Part shown: in pieces, positions 706-10,093 of the stretch
Layout of the letters: every line of letters begins with the position of its first letter
Numbering within the stretch: the first letter of the stretch is position 1
Assembly: GCA_900556425.1 (NCBI GenBank)
Contig: USOR01000023.1
Span: 1-10,093 of the forward strand
Source of the DNA: an uncultured Coriobacteriaceae bacterium
GTDB lineage: Bacteria > Actinomycetota > Coriobacteriia > Coriobacteriales > QAMH01
Length of the DNA stretch: 10,093 nucleotides
Reading direction: 5' to 3'
The notes under the pieces: generated by a model
What the model was told of the DNA's origin: nothing
Seen by the model: only the letters and a program-made list of their open reading frames with translations
Database searches by the model: none
Translations under genes and position numbers: made by a program

Positions 706-2234
706 AGGAATTGACCGAGGTTCTCAAGGACTGGGAGGCCGTCATCGGCCTCGAGGTTCATGCTGAGCTCACGACGCTCAAGACCAAGATGTTCTGCTCG
801 TGCCCGATTGAGTTCGGTGCAGATCCGAATACGCATACTTGTCCGGTTTGCCTTGGCATGCCCGGTGCCCTTCCCGTGCCCAACAAGGCGGCTATCGAGA
901 GCATCGTGCTTGCCGGCCTGGCAACCAACTGCGACATCGAGAAGCATACGATGTTCTATCGCAAGGGCTACTTTTATCCGGACATGGCCAAGAACTTCCA
1001 GACGACGCAGGGGCCGCTCGCGTTCTGCATGCGCGGTCATCTTGACCTCGAGCTTTCCGCCAAGGGCGCTGCCGAGCGTGTTGACATCCCCAAGAACGAG
1101 GACGGGTCGTATACGACGTGCATCGGCATCACGCGCATCCACATGGAAGAAGACGCGGGCAAGATGACGCATCTGGGTGGTTCGGAAGGCCGTATCGATG
1201 GCGCGGAGCGCTCGCTCGTTGACTACAATCGCGCTGGTACGCCACTCATCGAGCTCGTCACCGAGCCCGACTTGCGTACGCCGGAAGAAGCGCGTGCCTT
1301 CATGCAGAAATTACGTCAGATCTACCTCACGCTCGGCATCTCGGATTGTTCGATGGAAGAGGGTTCGCTGCGCGCCGATGGCAATGTCTCGCTGCGTCGT
1401 CGTGGCTCGACGGAGCTCGGCACGAAGACGGAGCTCAAGAACATCAACTCGTTCAAGAATCTCCACGATGGCCTTGCCTACGAGATCTGCCGCCAGGCCG
1501 AGGTGCTCGAGAGCGGAGGAGTCATCCGCCAGGAGACGCGACACTGGGAGCCTGGCGCCAAGCGCACCATCGTCATGCGCGTCAAGGAGACGGCAGACGA
1601 CTATCGCATGTTCCCCGATCCTGATCTGGCCCCCTTCGACCTTTCCGACGAATTCATCGAGAACGTACGCGCCAAGCTTCCGGAGCTGCCCGATGCCAAG
1701 AAGCAGCGCTTCATGGAAAGCTATGGCCTGCCTGCCTATGATGCCGGCGAACTCGCCGGTGATGTCGAAATTGCCGAGTTCTTCGAGGAAGCGGCTCACG
1801 ATGAAGATGCGGCTGTCGCCAAGAAGATCGCGAACCTCATCATCAACGACGTGAGCGCGTGGACAAACGAAAACGCGACGACCATCTCGAAGTCCGGTAT
1901 CGCTCCGGCGGCGTTGGCAAAGCTTGCTAAGCTTCTGGCCGATGACACAATCAGTTCCAAGCAGGGCAAGGAAGTTCTTGCCGCGCTCATCGGAGAGGGC
2001 ATCGATCCCGAGGAATACGTGAAGTCACACGGCATGGAACAGACAACCGACACGAGTGCCATCGAGCAGATGGTCGAGGAGCTCATGGCAGCCAACCCTG
2101 ACAAGGTCGAGGCCTACCGCGGTGGCAAGACGGGTCTGCAGGGCTTTTTCATGGGGCAGGTCATGAAGCAGCTTGGCGGTCAAGGCAACCCCAAGGTCAT
2201 CTCGGCGATCGTTACCGAAAAGCTCGAGGGATAG
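702..2234 (+). CDS. gatB: Aspartyl/glutamyl-tRNA amidotransferase subunit B
   Basis: GatB binds the mischarged tRNA, activates the acyl group with ATP and transfers ammonia from GatA, completing Gln-tRNA(Gln) and/or Asn-tRNA(Asn) synthesis. The 510-residue protein is slightly longer than the usual ~475-500. It opens with the family block IGLEVHAEL (residues 15-23), followed by zinc-type cysteines C32, C34, C47 and C50 (CSCP ... CPVCLGMPG). IHMEEDAGK, DYNRAGTPLIELVTEPD, MEEGSLRADGNVSLR, TELKNINSF and DDYRMFPDPDL follow in order. The C-terminal YqeY-like tail contains GLQGFFMGQVMKQLGG. The ATG at 702 has a GGAGGT at 691-696, five bases upstream, and overlaps the gatA stop. The tail ends only 12 bases before the next gene, suggesting one transcript with the radical SAM gene. 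Nothing looks damaged. Confidence 0.97.
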   Translation: MKELTEVLKDWEAVIGLEVHAELTTLKTKMFCSCPIEFGADPNTHTCPVCLGMPGALPVPNKAAIESIVLAGLATNCDIEKHTMFYRKGYFYPDMAKNFQTTQGPLAFCMRGHLDLELSAKGAAERVDIPKNEDGSYTTCIGITRIHMEEDAGKMTHLGGSEGRIDGAERSLVDYNRAGTPLIELVTEPDLRTPEEARAFMQKLRQIYLTLGISDCSMEEGSLRADGNVSLRRRGSTELGTKTELKNINSFKNLHDGLAYEICRQAEVLESGGVIRQETRHWEPGAKRTIVMRVKETADDYRMFPDPDLAPFDLSDEFIENVRAKLPELPDAKKQRFMESYGLPAYDAGELAGDVEIAEFFEEAAHDEDAAVAKKIANLIINDVSAWTNENATTISKSGIAPAALAKLAKLLADDTISSKQGKEVLAALIGEGIDPEEYVKSHGMEQTTDTSAIEQMVEELMAANPDKVEAYRGGKTGLQGFFMGQVMKQLGGQGNPKVISAIVTEKLEG

Positions 2235-2246
2235 CCTTTCGCGCTT

Positions 2247-3167
2247 ATGATGGAAGCATGCGCCATATGCCCTCGTCATTGCCATGTTGATCGTACGAGA
2301 ACACATGGCGTGTGCGGCGAGGGCGATGAGGTGCGTCTTGCACGCGCCGCGCTCCACTTCTGGGAGGAACCACCCATTAGCGGCGAGTCCGGGAGTGGCA
2401 CAGTTTTTTTCTCGGGTTGTCCGCTTCGCTGCGTCTACTGCCAGAACAAGGATATCGCACGTGGCAAAATAGGTCGCGCCGTTTCCGTCGAGCGCTTGGC
2501 TCGCATCTTTCTCGAGCAGCAGGAACGCGGAGCTCTCAACATCAACCTTGTTACACCGACGCACTTTGCGCCGCAAATCAAGGCAGCACTCGATCTTGCC
2601 CGTTCAGACGGGTTTTCGAACAGACCGCTTGCCTTGCCCATCGTTTACAACACCAGTGGCTACGAGCTGCCCGAGGCCATTGAAGCACTCGAAGGCTATG
2701 TTGACGTCTTCCTCACCGATTTCAAGTACGCTTCATCTGCGCTTGCCCAGCGCTATTCGGCTGCACCCGATTATCCGCGCATTGCCTCTTGTGCTCTCGA
2801 TGTCATGTTCGAGCTTGCAGGGCCGTTGCGCTATGACGAAACCGAGAGGGGAGAGGAGCGCCTCATGCGTGGCGTCGTCGTGCGACATCTTCTACTGCCA
2901 GGACATCTTGAGGATTCCAAACGCGTCATGGAACTCCTTGCCGCAAAACCCTATCGCGATGACATGATTGTGAGCATCATGAACCAGTTCACGCCTTCCG
3001 AGGAGCTTATCCGGGATTATCCGGAGCTCGCTTCTCGCGTGAGCGAAGACGAATACGACGAGCTCATTGACTATGCCCTCGATTTAGGCATTGTGAATAG
3101 CTTCATGCAAGAAAGCGATACAGCCGATGAGTCCTTCATACCCGCCTTCGATTACGAGGGCGTGTAG
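2247..3167 (+). CDS. PflX-like radical SAM protein (COG1313 type), substrate unknown
   Basis: This is a radical SAM enzyme related to pyruvate-formate-lyase-activating-type proteins. The radical SAM cluster motif is CPLRCVYC, with cysteines at about 58, 62 and 65 (CxxxCxxC). It sits inside EEPPISG ... GSGTVFFSGC ... CQN, a block typical of the PflX group. Four more cysteines near the N-terminus (C5, C8, C12 and C23, as CAICPRHC ... GVC) are also usual for this group and may hold a second Fe-S cluster. The length, 306 residues, is normal. Family members have no well-established reaction as far as I know, so no substrate is assigned. Two consecutive ATG codons (2247 and 2250) can serve as start. 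No good ribosome binding site lies close, only GAGGGA about 15 bases upstream, so translation may depend on termination of gatB 12 bases earlier. The next gene starts two bases after its stop. Confidence 0.85.
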   Translation: MMEACAICPRHCHVDRTRTHGVCGEGDEVRLARAALHFWEEPPISGESGSGTVFFSGCPLRCVYCQNKDIARGKIGRAVSVERLARIFLEQQERGALNINLVTPTHFAPQIKAALDLARSDGFSNRPLALPIVYNTSGYELPEAIEALEGYVDVFLTDFKYASSALAQRYSAAPDYPRIASCALDVMFELAGPLRYDETERGEERLMRGVVVRHLLLPGHLEDSKRVMELLAAKPYRDDMIVSIMNQFTPSEELIRDYPELASRVSEDEYDELIDYALDLGIVNSFMQESDTADESFIPAFDYEGV

Positions 3168-3169
3168 CC

Positions 3170-4205
3170 ATGCACCATGTCGACTACCTTATCGTTGGGG
3201 CTGGTCTTGCCGGATCGACTTGTGCATATCTTCTGCGCAAAGCGGGGTGCGACGTCATGCTCCTCGAACGTCTCGACGTGAAAACCAAGTCCAAGCTCTG
3301 TGCCGGCCTTGTCACACCACGCGCCATGCACGAGCTCGACATGATATTCGACAATTGGTCTAATAACCTTGTAAAGTCGCAGTTCACGTCCATGTGCTGT
3401 GATGCCGCAGGCATCAAGGTCAATCTCGATCGCATACGAATGTGCAGTGCCGAGAGATGCGAACTCGATGCGTTCGTGCTCGACGCCTTCCGTGATTGCG
3501 GGGGAGAGCTCGTCGACCGCTTTCATGTCCGGGCAATCGACTTCGACAGACACCGTCTCGAGGGAACGCGTGACGGCGAAACGCAGGAGACGCTCGGTTA
3601 CGGCACGCTCATTGCCGCCGATGGGGCGCTTTCGTACGTACGAAAGGCACTCACCGGTAGCCGACGCGATTCTCTCACTCGAGACCACGGTCGCGAACAC
3701 GGGCGCGCCACTCACCATGTGCTACGAAGATGGTTTCATTGGGTACTCCTGGTACGCGCCCTGCGGTGACGTTGCCAAGCTCGGTTGCTGTGCCTATGCA
3801 GGCGATCCCGACCTTGACGCTCGCCTTCGGGCATTTGCCGACCAGATGGGCGTCGAGTACGAGACGCGACGCGGTGCCTTCATTCCGACGGGACGCGATG
3901 TCCTGCTCGAAAGAAGCGGCGTCTACTTTCTAGGCGATGCGGCGAGCCTTATCTGTCCGCCATCCGGGGAGGGCATATACCATGCGCTTCATTCGGCACG
4001 TATGCTCGCTCGTGCACTTGTCAACAAGGCGAATTATCATGCGCTCATGAAACCCATCGTCACCGAGATACGGCGTCAGCACAAGCTGCGCAACCTCTTC
4101 TTCGACACGCGTTTCATGCGTTGCGGTATCAAGCTTGCGGATGCCACGCCCTATGGTGCCGAGCGCGCCGTGAAGTTCGCCCTCAAGCACTTCGCGGGAT
4201 ACTAG
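3170..4205 (+). pseudogene. Geranylgeranyl-reductase-like FAD-dependent oxidoreductase, frameshifted
   Basis: Two reading frames together make one flavoprotein of about 345 residues. The first frame (from ATG 3170, with GAGGG at 3156-3160) has an N-terminal Rossmann FAD motif, VGAGLAGS at residues 9-16, with E33 ending the second strand. It then has KLCAGLV and the block TLIAADGALSYVRKAL; left alone it reads nonsense and stops at 3769. The second frame picks up near 3657 with VADAILSLETTV and continues through GYSWYAPCGDVAKLGCC. It also carries the second FAD motif GDAASLICPPSGEG (GD codons at 3933-3938), ending at 4205. A +1 change between about 3647 and 3662 joins them. Related enzymes reduce isoprenoid double bonds or oxidise other lipids; the substrate here is unknown. 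The body of both halves looks well conserved, so this is either a very recent mutation or a sequence error. No classic slippery site or nearby stop supports programmed frameshifting. Confidence 0.8.
3629..3646. repeat. 18-bp perfect palindrome inside the broken oxidoreductase gene
   Basis: CTTTCGTACGTACGAAAG equals its own reverse complement. Its centre contains the tandem units CGTA CGTA. It falls in codons for LSYVRK, only a few bases before the point where the reading frame must change. Gain or loss of one 4-base unit would shift the frame by one, so it is a possible slippage site. Confidence 0.7.
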
Positions 4206-8322: not shown

Positions 8323-8766
8323 CTACTTGCCGGTTGAGCCGAATCCACCAGAAGAACGCTCGGTCTCGTCAAGCTCGTTTACTTCGAGCAGCTCGACAAC
8401 GGGAACCTCTTGAATGACAAGCTGCGCAACGCGGTCTCCACGTTTAATGGCAATTTCGCTTTGCGTGTCTGTATTGAGTCCGATCACGCCGATTTCTCCG
8501 CGATACCCGCTATCTATGAGCCCTGGCGTGTTCACTATGGAGAAACCCTGCTTGGCGGCAAGACCGCTGCGAGGCTGCACGAAGCCCGCATAACCCTGAG
8601 GAATGGCAATGGCGATGCCCGTTGGGATCATAACGCGCTGTCCTGGCTGCAAGGTCACGTCCTTGGCCGCATAGAGATCGAGCCCTGCATCGCCCGGATT
8701 GGCGTATGCGGGCGTTGGCAGCTCTTCATCGAGCTTCTTGAGTTTGAGCGTGATGGTCTTACTCAT
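8323..8766 (-). CDS. dut: Deoxyuridine 5'-triphosphate nucleotidohydrolase (dUTPase)
   Basis: It hydrolyses dUTP to dUMP and pyrophosphate, keeping uracil out of DNA and feeding dTMP synthesis. The 147-residue trimeric-type enzyme shows all five motifs. These are DAGLDLYA (residues 26-33), PRSGLAAK (65-72), NTPGLIDSGYRGEI (79-92, with catalytic Asp85 and Tyr88), RGDRVAQLVI (109-118) and the flexible C-terminal loop RSSGGFGSTG (137-146). Its start lies inside the end of nrdR (8-base overlap) and is served by AGGAG at 8774-8778, seven bases away, so the two are co-transcribed and probably coupled. Placement behind nrdR joins two controls of the dNTP pool. It looks intact and functional. Confidence 0.97.
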   Translation of the reverse strand: MSKTITLKLKKLDEELPTPAYANPGDAGLDLYAAKDVTLQPGQRVMIPTGIAIAIPQGYAGFVQPRSGLAAKQGFSIVNTPGLIDSGYRGEIGVIGLNTDTQSEIAIKRGDRVAQLVIQEVPVVELLEVNELDETERSSGGFGSTGK

Positions 8767-9259
8767 CTTCTAGCTCCTGAACGTCGGTGGCCGATGCTGC
8801 ATCAGCTGCGCTTTCAGTCAGGCTCTCAAGCTCTTCGCGCAGCTCGTCGATATCCTTGAAATCCTTGTAGACCGAGGCAAAGCGAATATACGCGACTTTA
8901 TCCAAATCACCCAATCTTATGAGAACCTGGTCTCCCAAGGACGAGGAAGGGATAGGTCCACGATATGTGTTGCGAATATCATTTTCGACCATGTCGACAA
9001 AGGCTTCGAGCGTATGAAGCGAAACATTGCGTTTGGCAGTTGCCGAGAGCAGACTCTTGAGAAGCTTGGAGCGATCGAAAGGCTCGATGTGCTCGTCTCG
9101 TTTGAGAACCATGATAGGTTCCTCTTCCCTTCTCTCGAAGGTCGTGAAACGTGTTCCGCACTCGAGGCATTCTCTCCTGCGCTTTATGCTTGCTCCGTCG
9201 TCAAATGAACGCGAATCGATTACCCGGGATTCTTTACAGCTGCAGTTTGGGCAAAGCAT
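8759..9259 (-). CDS. nrdR: Transcriptional repressor NrdR
   Basis: NrdR represses ribonucleotide reductase genes when its ATP-cone senses enough dATP/ATP. The 166-residue protein has the N-terminal zinc ribbon CPNC (C3, C6) and CLECGTRFTTFE (C31, C34). Between them lies VIDSRSFDDGASIKRRRE, which contributes the basic DNA-contact surface. An ATP-cone domain follows from about 47 to 135 (MVLKRDEHIEPFDRSKL ... YIRFASVYKDF). It is somewhat longer than the usual ~150 residues because of an acidic tail (ELESLTESAADAASATD...). The ATG at 9259 has GAGGAG at 9265-9270, five bases upstream. A weak - strand promoter (GATAAT at 9283-9288, poor -35) may supplement readthrough from the SOS-type gene 107 bases upstream. 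I saw no full NrdR box in the window, so its target nrd operon is elsewhere. The lexA / small gene / nrdR order matches actinobacteria. Confidence 0.97.
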   Translation of the reverse strand: MLCPNCSCKESRVIDSRSFDDGASIKRRRECLECGTRFTTFERREEEPIMVLKRDEHIEPFDRSKLLKSLLSATAKRNVSLHTLEAFVDMVENDIRNTYRGPIPSSSLGDQVLIRLGDLDKVAYIRFASVYKDFKDIDELREELESLTESAADAASATDVQELEDE

Positions 9260-9366: not shown

Positions 9367-9654
9367 TTACATGAAGGAGAAAACGAAAAGGGCGCCTATG
9401 GCCACGGTGCACGCAGCGAAGGCAAAGACTCGCTCACGCATGCCATTGAGGAAAACGTGATGTGCGCGCGAATCGAGCACGTCGTGCACATCCGAGGAGA
9501 AATCGCCGCCGTGCAAATAGCCGAACGCCATATTTGCCATACGGTCTAATAGCGATTCACGCGTGCGTGGCATGCCCTGGATAACGGTAAGCTGCGGTTG
9601 CACATTGACTGATGTGAGCATCATGTTGGCTTCTTGCGTGCGGAGAGCGTTCAT
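9367..9654 (-). CDS. Small single-span membrane protein, candidate SOS cell-division inhibitor
   Basis: I do not recognise a domain in this 95-residue protein. The start is well supported: AGGAGG at 9660-9665, five bases before the ATG. Residues 1-72 are mostly polar with several basic residues (PRTRESLLDRMANMAFGYL, then SRAHHVFLNGMRER). The last ~20 (FAFAACTVAIGALFVFSF) form one membrane span ending almost at the C-terminus. Basic residues just before the span predict the N-terminus inside the cell and a tail anchor. No LysM domain or N-terminal signal is present. The gene is divergent from lexA, shares its three SOS boxes and is followed by nrdR. In C. glutamicum divS and in M. tuberculosis Rv2719c hold this place, and yneA is divergent from lexA in Bacillus; these products delay division after DNA damage. 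The role is inferred from position and operators, not similarity. Confidence 0.8.
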   Translation of the reverse strand: MNALRTQEANMMLTSVNVQPQLTVIQGMPRTRESLLDRMANMAFGYLHGGDFSSDVHDVLDSRAHHVFLNGMRERVFAFAACTVAIGALFVFSFM

Positions 9655-9723
9655 GTTGACCTCCTGTTTGCTTCATGTACGTGCCCGTTTGTTATATCCG
9701 TTACCTGTGACACGGTTTTAAAC

Positions 9724-9737
9724 CGAACATCTGTTCT
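9724..9737. promoter_or_regulatory. LexA binding site (SOS box 1)
   Basis: CGAACATCTGTTCT has a perfect GAACA-TC-TGTTC dyad and fits the Gram-positive/actinobacterial SOS consensus GAAC-N4-GTTC. It is the most symmetric of three boxes. It lies about where transcription of the - strand small gene would start. Confidence 0.88.
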
Positions 9738-9743
9738 CGATAT

Positions 9744-9772
9744 ATAATATACGAACATCTGTTTGATGCCAA
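9744..9772 (-). promoter_or_regulatory. Promoter of the small membrane protein gene
   Basis: On the - strand TTGGCA (9772-9767), a 17-bp spacer and TATTAT (9749-9744) each match five of six sigma-70 type consensus bases. Box 2 fills the spacer and box 1 covers the likely start site, the layout expected of a LexA-repressed gene. The leader would be about 80 bases. Confidence 0.65.
9752..9765. promoter_or_regulatory. LexA binding site (SOS box 2)
   Basis: CGAACATCTGTTTG carries the same core with one change in the right half-site (GTTT for GTTC), and C/G flanks that also pair. It sits wholly inside the 17-bp spacer of the - strand promoter and just downstream of a + strand TATAAT, so LexA bound here should block both directions. 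Confidence 0.88.
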
Positions 9773-9779
9773 TAAAAAA

Positions 9780-9793
9780 CGAACATCTGTTTG
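9780..9793. promoter_or_regulatory. LexA binding site (SOS box 3)
   Basis: It is identical over 14 bases to box 2 and exactly 28 bp from it. It overlaps the -35 of a possible proximal lexA promoter (9791-9819), which would give autorepression. Confidence 0.85.
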
Positions 9794-9841: not shown

Positions 9842-10093
9842 ATGGCATGGATAACGAAACGCCAGCAACAGATACTTGATTACATTCGAAAGTGCATCGA
9901 GGTAAAGCACTATCCCCCATCTGTGCGTGAGATTGGCCAGGCCATTGGCCTATCTTCCCCCTCCACTGTCCATGCGCATCTCAACGCGCTTGAGGCAAAG
10001 GGATATATCAGGCGTGACGGGGCTAAATCACGGTCCATGGTCATTACGGGGGCAGAGCAAGAGCAGAAGACGCCGGCAGGCAATACGTCGTCT
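9842..10093 (+). CDS. lexA: SOS repressor LexA, N-terminal DNA-binding domain (runs off right edge)
   Basis: LexA represses DNA-damage genes and cleaves itself when RecA is activated. The 84 codons present give the winged-helix domain: [15 protein letters not shown], then [20 protein letters not shown] and [16 protein letters not shown], a clear match to the LexA family. The linker has begun ([13 protein letters not shown]); the Ala-Gly cleavage site and Ser/Lys catalytic pair lie outside the window. The start is odd: GGGAGG (9836-9841) touches the ATG at 9842 with no spacing, while an out-of-frame ATG at 9847 has ideal spacing. An in-frame ATA at 9851 is well spaced but a rare start. No other in-frame ATG, GTG or TTG exists back to the stop at 9794. 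Three SOS boxes upstream indicate autoregulation. Confidence 0.95.
9847..9879 (+). other. Possible 10-codon ORF overlapping the lexA start
   Basis: ATG at 9847 lies five bases after GGGAGG (9836-9841) and reads [10 protein letters not shown] followed by TGA, in a different frame from lexA. It may compete for ribosomes or be accidental. Only its unusually good spacing supports it. Confidence 0.2.

Follow-up and report, generated by a model that had tools for sequence, protein, structure and literature searches.

SOS division inhibitors are known from the place beside lexA and raise the question of how small proteins of the membrane can halt FtsW; according to the excerpts of PMC13396833, YneA needs both its membrane helix and its LysM domain. 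In the window, which is the whole stretch of 10,093 nucleotides that was analysed, the corresponding place beside lexA is held by a gene with LexA-type boxes, as the earlier note had pointed out. The encoded protein of 95 residues ends with a hydrophobic span. The question raised by this locus is whether such a protein can be a division inhibitor, and whether it is a relative of YneA or a separate invention. The reading preferred here, with a probability of roughly 55%, is that the protein is a DNA-damage-induced division inhibitor whose ancestors were of the YneA type with LysM, and whose action is predicted to depend on its membrane helix. The features of the locus are the following:

8323..8766: dut, downstream of nrdR
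8759..9259, minus strand: nrdR, the next downstream gene (TIGR00244, over the cut-off)
9367..9654, minus strand: gene of the tail-anchored SOS-type protein of 95 aa (open reading frame, 13 homologues, purifying selection)
9373..9429, minus strand: predicted C-terminal membrane helix, residues 76-94 (hydropathy and AlphaFold2)
9430..9495, minus strand: juxtamembrane helix, residues 54-75, with conserved VHDVLD (56-61) and R75 (lower-confidence prediction, conserved columns)
9562..9642, minus strand: N-terminal module, residues 5-31, which aligns with the N-terminus of LysM-type proteins (hhalign, 27 columns)
9659..9665, minus strand: Shine-Dalgarno sequence AGGAGGT, 4 nt 5' of the ATG (sequence)
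9724..9737, plus strand: LexA-type box 1, one mismatch to CGAACATNTGTTYG (pattern)
9744..9772, minus strand: promoter-like site TTGGCA-17-TATTAT, reading into the window gene (promoter scan)
9752..9765, plus strand: LexA-type box 2, perfect match to CGAACATNTGTTYG, flanked by the hexamers of the promoter-like site (pattern)
9780..9793, plus strand: LexA-type box 3, perfect match to CGAACATNTGTTYG (pattern)
9842..10093, plus strand: lexA, 5' part (PF01726, 91.3 bits)

In the open reading frame listing, the gene starts with ATG at 9654 and stops with the codon 9367-9369 on the minus strand. It is separated by 187 bases from the divergent lexA and by 107 bp from nrdR. The 13 database homologues were 52-95% identical over the full length and none of them was named; among 17 database entries from Gordonibacter, Adlercreutzia, Slackia and relatives, one has a name, 'hypothetical protein'. 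A gene at the equivalent place of locus L001 was 50% identical to the window gene. The dN/dS values of all 6 tested pairs of tail-anchored relatives were 0.13-0.50, and those of the window gene were 0.24 with L001 and 0.15 with L140, with dS near saturation in both. Based on the full-length homologues, the L001 gene and the dN/dS values below 1, the window gene is real and under selection. At Eggerthellaceae loci, forms of about 110 aa, forms as short as 23 aa and loci without any form were found, as would be expected of a functionless remnant of a decaying yneA-type gene. However, the purifying selection, the intact ribosome binding site, whose strength had been recognised before, and the intact boxes make such decay very improbable.

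The mean Kyte-Doolittle value of residues 76-94 was 2.34, compared with the best value of 0.56 before residue 72. These residues form the sole strongly hydrophobic span and the single predicted membrane helix of the protein, and are followed by one residue, so the description of one span at the extreme C-terminus in the earlier note was accurate. R73, E74 and R75 directly precede the helix, and residues 77-95 include no charged residue (K, R, D, E, H). The AlphaFold2 model, calculated from 15 sequences, had a mean pLDDT of 59.0 and a pTM of 0.26, with confidence confined to the C-terminal helix; the predicted helix is continuous over residues 54-94, and the mean pLDDT over residues 81-90 was 91. 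The Pfam and NCBIfam searches resulted in no match at E ≤ 1, which bears out the reported absence of a LysM domain; the sensitive profile search proposed together with that claim thus gave no match to an unrelated, well-characterised family in these two collections. A conserved face of the membrane helix was considered and rejected, since the helical stripe of conservation was not significant in the window family (P 0.064); the P value for other tail-anchored helices was 0.97.

The three boxes, beginning at 9724, 9752 and 9780, follow each other at exact 28 bp steps upstream of the lexA start at 9842 on the plus strand. The promoter scan found one site, which equals the chance expectation, and it is its position alone that speaks for the site. 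At tail-anchored loci, 52 of the 53 distinct stretches between lexA and the gene contained a loose box, whereas shuffles gave a mean of 0.3 and a maximum of 2. At LysM loci, 103 of the 106 stretches contained one, with a shuffle mean of 1.0 and a maximum of 5; the stricter form was found in 29 and 94 stretches, respectively. The commonest box spacings in tail-anchored loci were 28 bp and then 56, which hints at phased repressor binding.

The nearest kin of the window among the genomes searched were G198 and G001, with GatB 96% identical. The strict pattern CGAACRNNYGTTYG gave 5 sites at 4 places in each of them. In G198, two of the sites were at lexA/the window-type gene, at a distance of 28 bp from each other, and the other three preceded uvrA, ruvC and the gene of a Y-family polymerase. 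In G001, two were at lexA/the window-type gene, one preceded a uvrA-like frame (L291), and L285 and L283 had one each. The genome-wide counts of boxes in G198 and G001 were not above the reversed-pattern control, and for this reason the SOS argument rests on the locations of the boxes. These locations indicate that the window gene is likely SOS-controlled by its boxes, in line with the earlier view of a gene divergent from lexA and under SOS boxes.

Two further sites in these genomes deserve mention. One, in G001, is a palindromic LexA-type box without mismatch at 1501-1514 of L283, which has on either side a frame not recognised as an SOS gene; it may be a chance site or mark a novel SOS gene. 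In L282 of G198, two divergent frames, 3-1379 on the minus strand and 1545-3014 on the plus strand, have one palindromic LexA-type box between them; they are the Y-family polymerase gene and a frame of 459 aa. Residues from about 116 onward of the 459-aa frame match aminotransferases, and its N-terminal stretch, in our reading, resembles a helix-turn-helix.

Direct scans of GTDB contigs and viral contigs with the window protein confirmed no relative, and the pattern step of these scans misses distant members; since L001 holds a 50% identical relative, loci were sought via NrdR and LexA instead. In total, 216 loci were collected, 80 via NrdR, 36 via LexA searches (6 + 30) and 100 by place; lexA was found in 184 and the other 32 were dropped. 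The sample is non-random, as it follows the LexA score order among the matches listed (246 genomes, 242 with a match). Some listed entries of near-equal score were omitted, a few non-Coriobacteriia came with the NrdR search and some genomes occur twice. With these loci, the lexA-nrdR gap was compared across Coriobacteriia, as had been proposed: in the 184 mostly Coriobacteriia loci, the lexA-divergent gene was of the LysM type in 107, tail-anchored in 61 and neither in 16, and no locus contained both.

The 16 loci with neither type were mixed. L024 contained a tail-anchored gene missed by the filter, L006 a 47-aa tail-anchored frame behind a box and beside nrdR, and L138 a helix with a short tail and no LysM, while L084 and L096 were cut at the contig end. 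In several others nrdR followed directly, with no candidate frame seen. At L004, the automatic tail-anchored call took a wrong frame; the likely gene encodes 44 aa, lies behind boxes and adjoins nrdR. No candidate frame was seen between lexA and nrdR in L017, L034, L046, L047 and L173, from which the function appears to be dispensable. In the Adlercreutzia-type loci L007, L011, L014, L020, L021, L206 and L215, only a 23-residue single-helix frame was found behind a box on the lexA side; L086 and L195 repeat two of these seven.

These shortest forms, standing behind LexA-type boxes, are reminiscent of TisB. TisB of E. coli disturbs the membrane and slows growth or makes persisters; it is amphipathic, with charged residues in its helix. 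An SOS-induced membrane peptide acting by such disturbance, with no role at the divisome, is nevertheless an improbable explanation of the window gene, because the window helix lacks charged residues and because the place and the N-terminus of the protein are common to YneA-like proteins.

The relationship to YneA was studied with the model NF010723 and with N-terminal profiles. Two LysM proteins were tested, and both matched PF01476 as well as NF010723, the latter over helix and LysM with 53.7 and 52.1 bits (cut-off 60). In all 8 LysM genomes examined, NF010723 picked out the gene beside lexA, with a score above the cut-off in one of them. The 20 tail-anchored genomes yielded a single weak match, in G149 (E 0.002), which was not on the lexA side. 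The model also matched at the same E-value in 8 of 14 control genomes, including E. coli; as it is not specific for yneA, the informative part is the blank in the tail-anchored genomes. The window protein shares with YneA the single membrane helix, predicted at residues 76-94. In contrast, it has no C-terminal LysM outside the membrane, and NF010723 gave no match to it in the NCBIfam search at E ≤ 1. Lacking LysM and a score with this model, the window protein is outside the YneA family as defined.

Many LysM proteins carry an N-terminal module consisting of G-N/T/S-x-AL and a following hydrophobic VIxGG or IIxFP stretch. The motif GxxAL, which was defined after inspecting the sequences, occurred before the helix in 38 of 107 LysM and 36 of 61 tail-anchored proteins, compared with about 1, and at most 4, in shuffles. 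For the LysM N-terminal profile, 35 of the 38 proteins with the motif were used, and the remaining 69 LysM proteins were omitted. The window family matched this profile in hhalign with P 3.3e-5 and a score of 26.1 over 27 columns, and the tail-anchored proteins with P 2.5e-6 and a score of 30.5; 0 of 200 column shuffles reached these scores, the largest being 14.8 and 12.5, respectively. The window sequence alone had 5.3 bits on the LysM-type N-terminal model, compared with 8.5 of the best of 4350 shuffled decoys, and 4 of 16 members of the window family were above this decoy.

The earlier note had proposed a functional analogue with a different architecture. The different architecture stands, as the predicted layout is tail-anchored with the helix at 76-94; the independent origin is opposed by the N-terminal profile match to LysM proteins. 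A separately arisen tail-anchored SOS division inhibitor which took the lexA-side slot and acts on the divisome with its cytoplasmic part would agree with the lack of a match between the window family and the profile of other tail-anchored proteins (P 0.08), and with the VHDVLD before the helix, which ranks among the best-conserved stretches of the window family. Against this stand the profile match, the absence of loci with both types and the cytoplasmic part, which is only 5 residues long in some Adlercreutzia, and we regard such an origin as unlikely. As the N-terminal profile of the window family matches that of the LysM proteins encoded beside lexA, and two of these score just under the YneA cut-off, the protein is probably better described as a LysM-less YneA-type derivative than as a new type or an unrelated analogue.

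To follow the history of the two types, a GatB tree replaced a tree of LexA N-termini, which had too few columns. It has 66 rows, namely the window and 65 genomes; of the 69 genomes searched, 3 lacked a match and one had a 24-residue match only. The window belongs to a clade of 48 rows with full support, in which it groups with G198 and G001. This clade includes 17 Eggerthellaceae-type rows (16 tail-anchored, 1 unclassified) and the four further tail-anchored rows G003, G250, G251 and G253, of which G003 and G250 were classed by the frame beside nrdR. It also includes 24 Coriobacteriales-like rows that form a clade of the LysM type, in which only the nested pair G090/G131 (supports 98 and 99) is tail-anchored. 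Among the 13 deep rows, G065 is the only one not of the LysM type. Short tail-anchored proteins occur in a termite-gut line consisting of G014 and G017, with G012 close to it. Parsimony on this tree, which leaves the direction of switches open, required at least 4 switches between the two states, or 5 if G065 is tail-anchored. A single clade of all tail-anchored rows was rejected on the GatB tree.

We infer that LysM is ancestral, since it is present in the deep Coriobacteriia, in the sole acidimicrobial locus (L077) and, according to the literature, in Bacillus and Mycobacterium. The wall-binding domain of the YneA type has then probably been lost several times in Coriobacteriia. No LysM remnant was found 3' of the stop codon in L191, L198, L131 or L138. 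A further-reaching version, in which repeated losses in the Eggerthellaceae/window stock, G090/G131, G065 and the termite-gut line left inhibitors that have no outer part, the shortest being the 23-residue Adlercreutzia helix, is possible and can be held only tentatively. If such forms still stop division, the helix would be the whole inhibitor and FtsW would be blocked within the bilayer, unlike in the glycan-gripping mode proposed for YneA.

Apart from the two types, the GatB proteins of the Coriobacteriales-like clade (G054, G068, G082, G084, G090, G117, G131 and others) showed split matches near residue 130 and longer frames. This suggests an insert in the GatB of that clade which is missing from the window lineage and Eggerthellaceae.

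For the preferred reading, a LysM-less inhibitor derived from the YneA type, the following course can be proposed. DNA damage would lead to cleavage of LexA and release of the boxes, and the tail of the protein would insert into the membrane, leaving its N-terminus in the cytoplasm. The predicted helix 54-94 would run from the cytoplasm into the bilayer. The YneA helix is reported to bind TM7 of FtsW and to be sufficient for localisation (PMC13396833); the membrane part of helix 54-94 may be its counterpart and may dock in the septal synthase complex. The septal synthase would then be kept inactive from inside the membrane, aided by the conserved juxtamembrane helix. Matches to the FtsW model above 300 bits were found in 28 of 28 genomes tested, over the cut-off in 8. 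As no residues would be left outside the membrane, the protein could not grip new glycan strands, as proposed for YneA, and inhibition would be like that by SidA, a protein of 29 aa acting on FtsW (PMC4211646). A mechanism centred on the polar cytoplasmic domain, as favoured in the earlier note, is less likely: this domain shrinks to few residues in several lineages, until little but the helix is left. By definition of the class, the helix is present in every tail-anchored form.

The published experiments bear on this proposal from both sides. The helix of B. subtilis YneA without LysM localises and does not inhibit division (PMC13396833), which makes a LysM-less inhibitor surprising. SosA missing nearly all of its outer part is also inactive (PMC6851548); with both truncations inactive, loss of the outer part could mean loss of function. 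In the case of ChiZ, LysM is apparently dispensable according to the review excerpts (PMC3989709). A membrane-tethered protein with another SOS role, such as an adaptor, a regulator of nrdR/dut or a factor of envelope stress, whose division role was lost with LysM, would fit the need of YneA for LysM (PMC13396833) and the loci without a candidate frame. The kept boxes, the purifying selection and the FtsW-model matches in all genomes tested speak against this, and we give it little credence.

As for turnover, outward-facing proteases, which clear YneA, could not reach the window protein, and its removal would therefore be cytoplasmic or intramembrane. A loss of the CtpA protease from the tail-anchored genomes was rejected, since CtpA does not follow the two types. 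A long CtpA-type match was found in 16 of 20 tail-anchored genomes (Eggerthellaceae and G253), and only short weak ones in G198, G001, G090 and G131. Of 16 LysM genomes, 11 Coriobacteriales-like ones had no long match and 5 deep ones had it.

Among the known proteins, YneA of Bacillus and the LysM proteins of Coriobacteriia resemble the window protein in their place beside lexA, the LexA boxes and the one membrane helix. Unlike YneA, the window protein terminates with the helix and has neither LysM nor an outer part; the comparison of N-terminal modules covered the LysM proteins of the lexA loci collected here. The predicted outer C-terminal part described in the excerpts of PMC6851548 as a feature of lexA-side inhibitors is absent from the window protein. 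ChiZ (Rv2719c) of Mycobacterium is DNA-damage-induced and a negative regulator of division, as proposed here for the window protein, but has an outer LysM domain and is described as a wall hydrolase (excerpts of PMC3989709, likened by description). DivS of Corynebacterium is, like the window protein, an SOS inhibitor near lexA described as lacking LysM (excerpts of PMC6851548 and PMC3989709), but its C-terminus is predicted to be outside (PMC6851548; likened by description). SosA of Staphylococcus is likewise divergent from lexA, small (77 aa) and, in the excerpts of PMC6851548, free of LysM, whereas its helix at residues 10-30 and essential outer C-terminal part give a reversed layout. SidA of Caulobacter, a tiny SOS membrane protein on FtsW, is closest in the likely working principle (PMC4211646); it is shorter and from another phylum, and the likeness lies in that principle. 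Among the matches listed, there was no literature on SOS inhibitors of Coriobacteriia.

The occurrence of the lexA-side gene with and without LysM in one class, where LysM was probably lost repeatedly and forms as short as 23 residues occur, would offer a natural series for defining the minimal inhibitor; the series may instead mark a change of function. A function is thereby suggested for the 'hypothetical protein' gene of Gordonibacter, Adlercreutzia, Slackia and relatives. Elsewhere in the window, at 3170-4205 on the plus strand, an apparent FAD-dependent reductase, by our reading, extends over the overlapping frames 3170-3769 and 3399-4205, which points to a frameshift or an assembly error.
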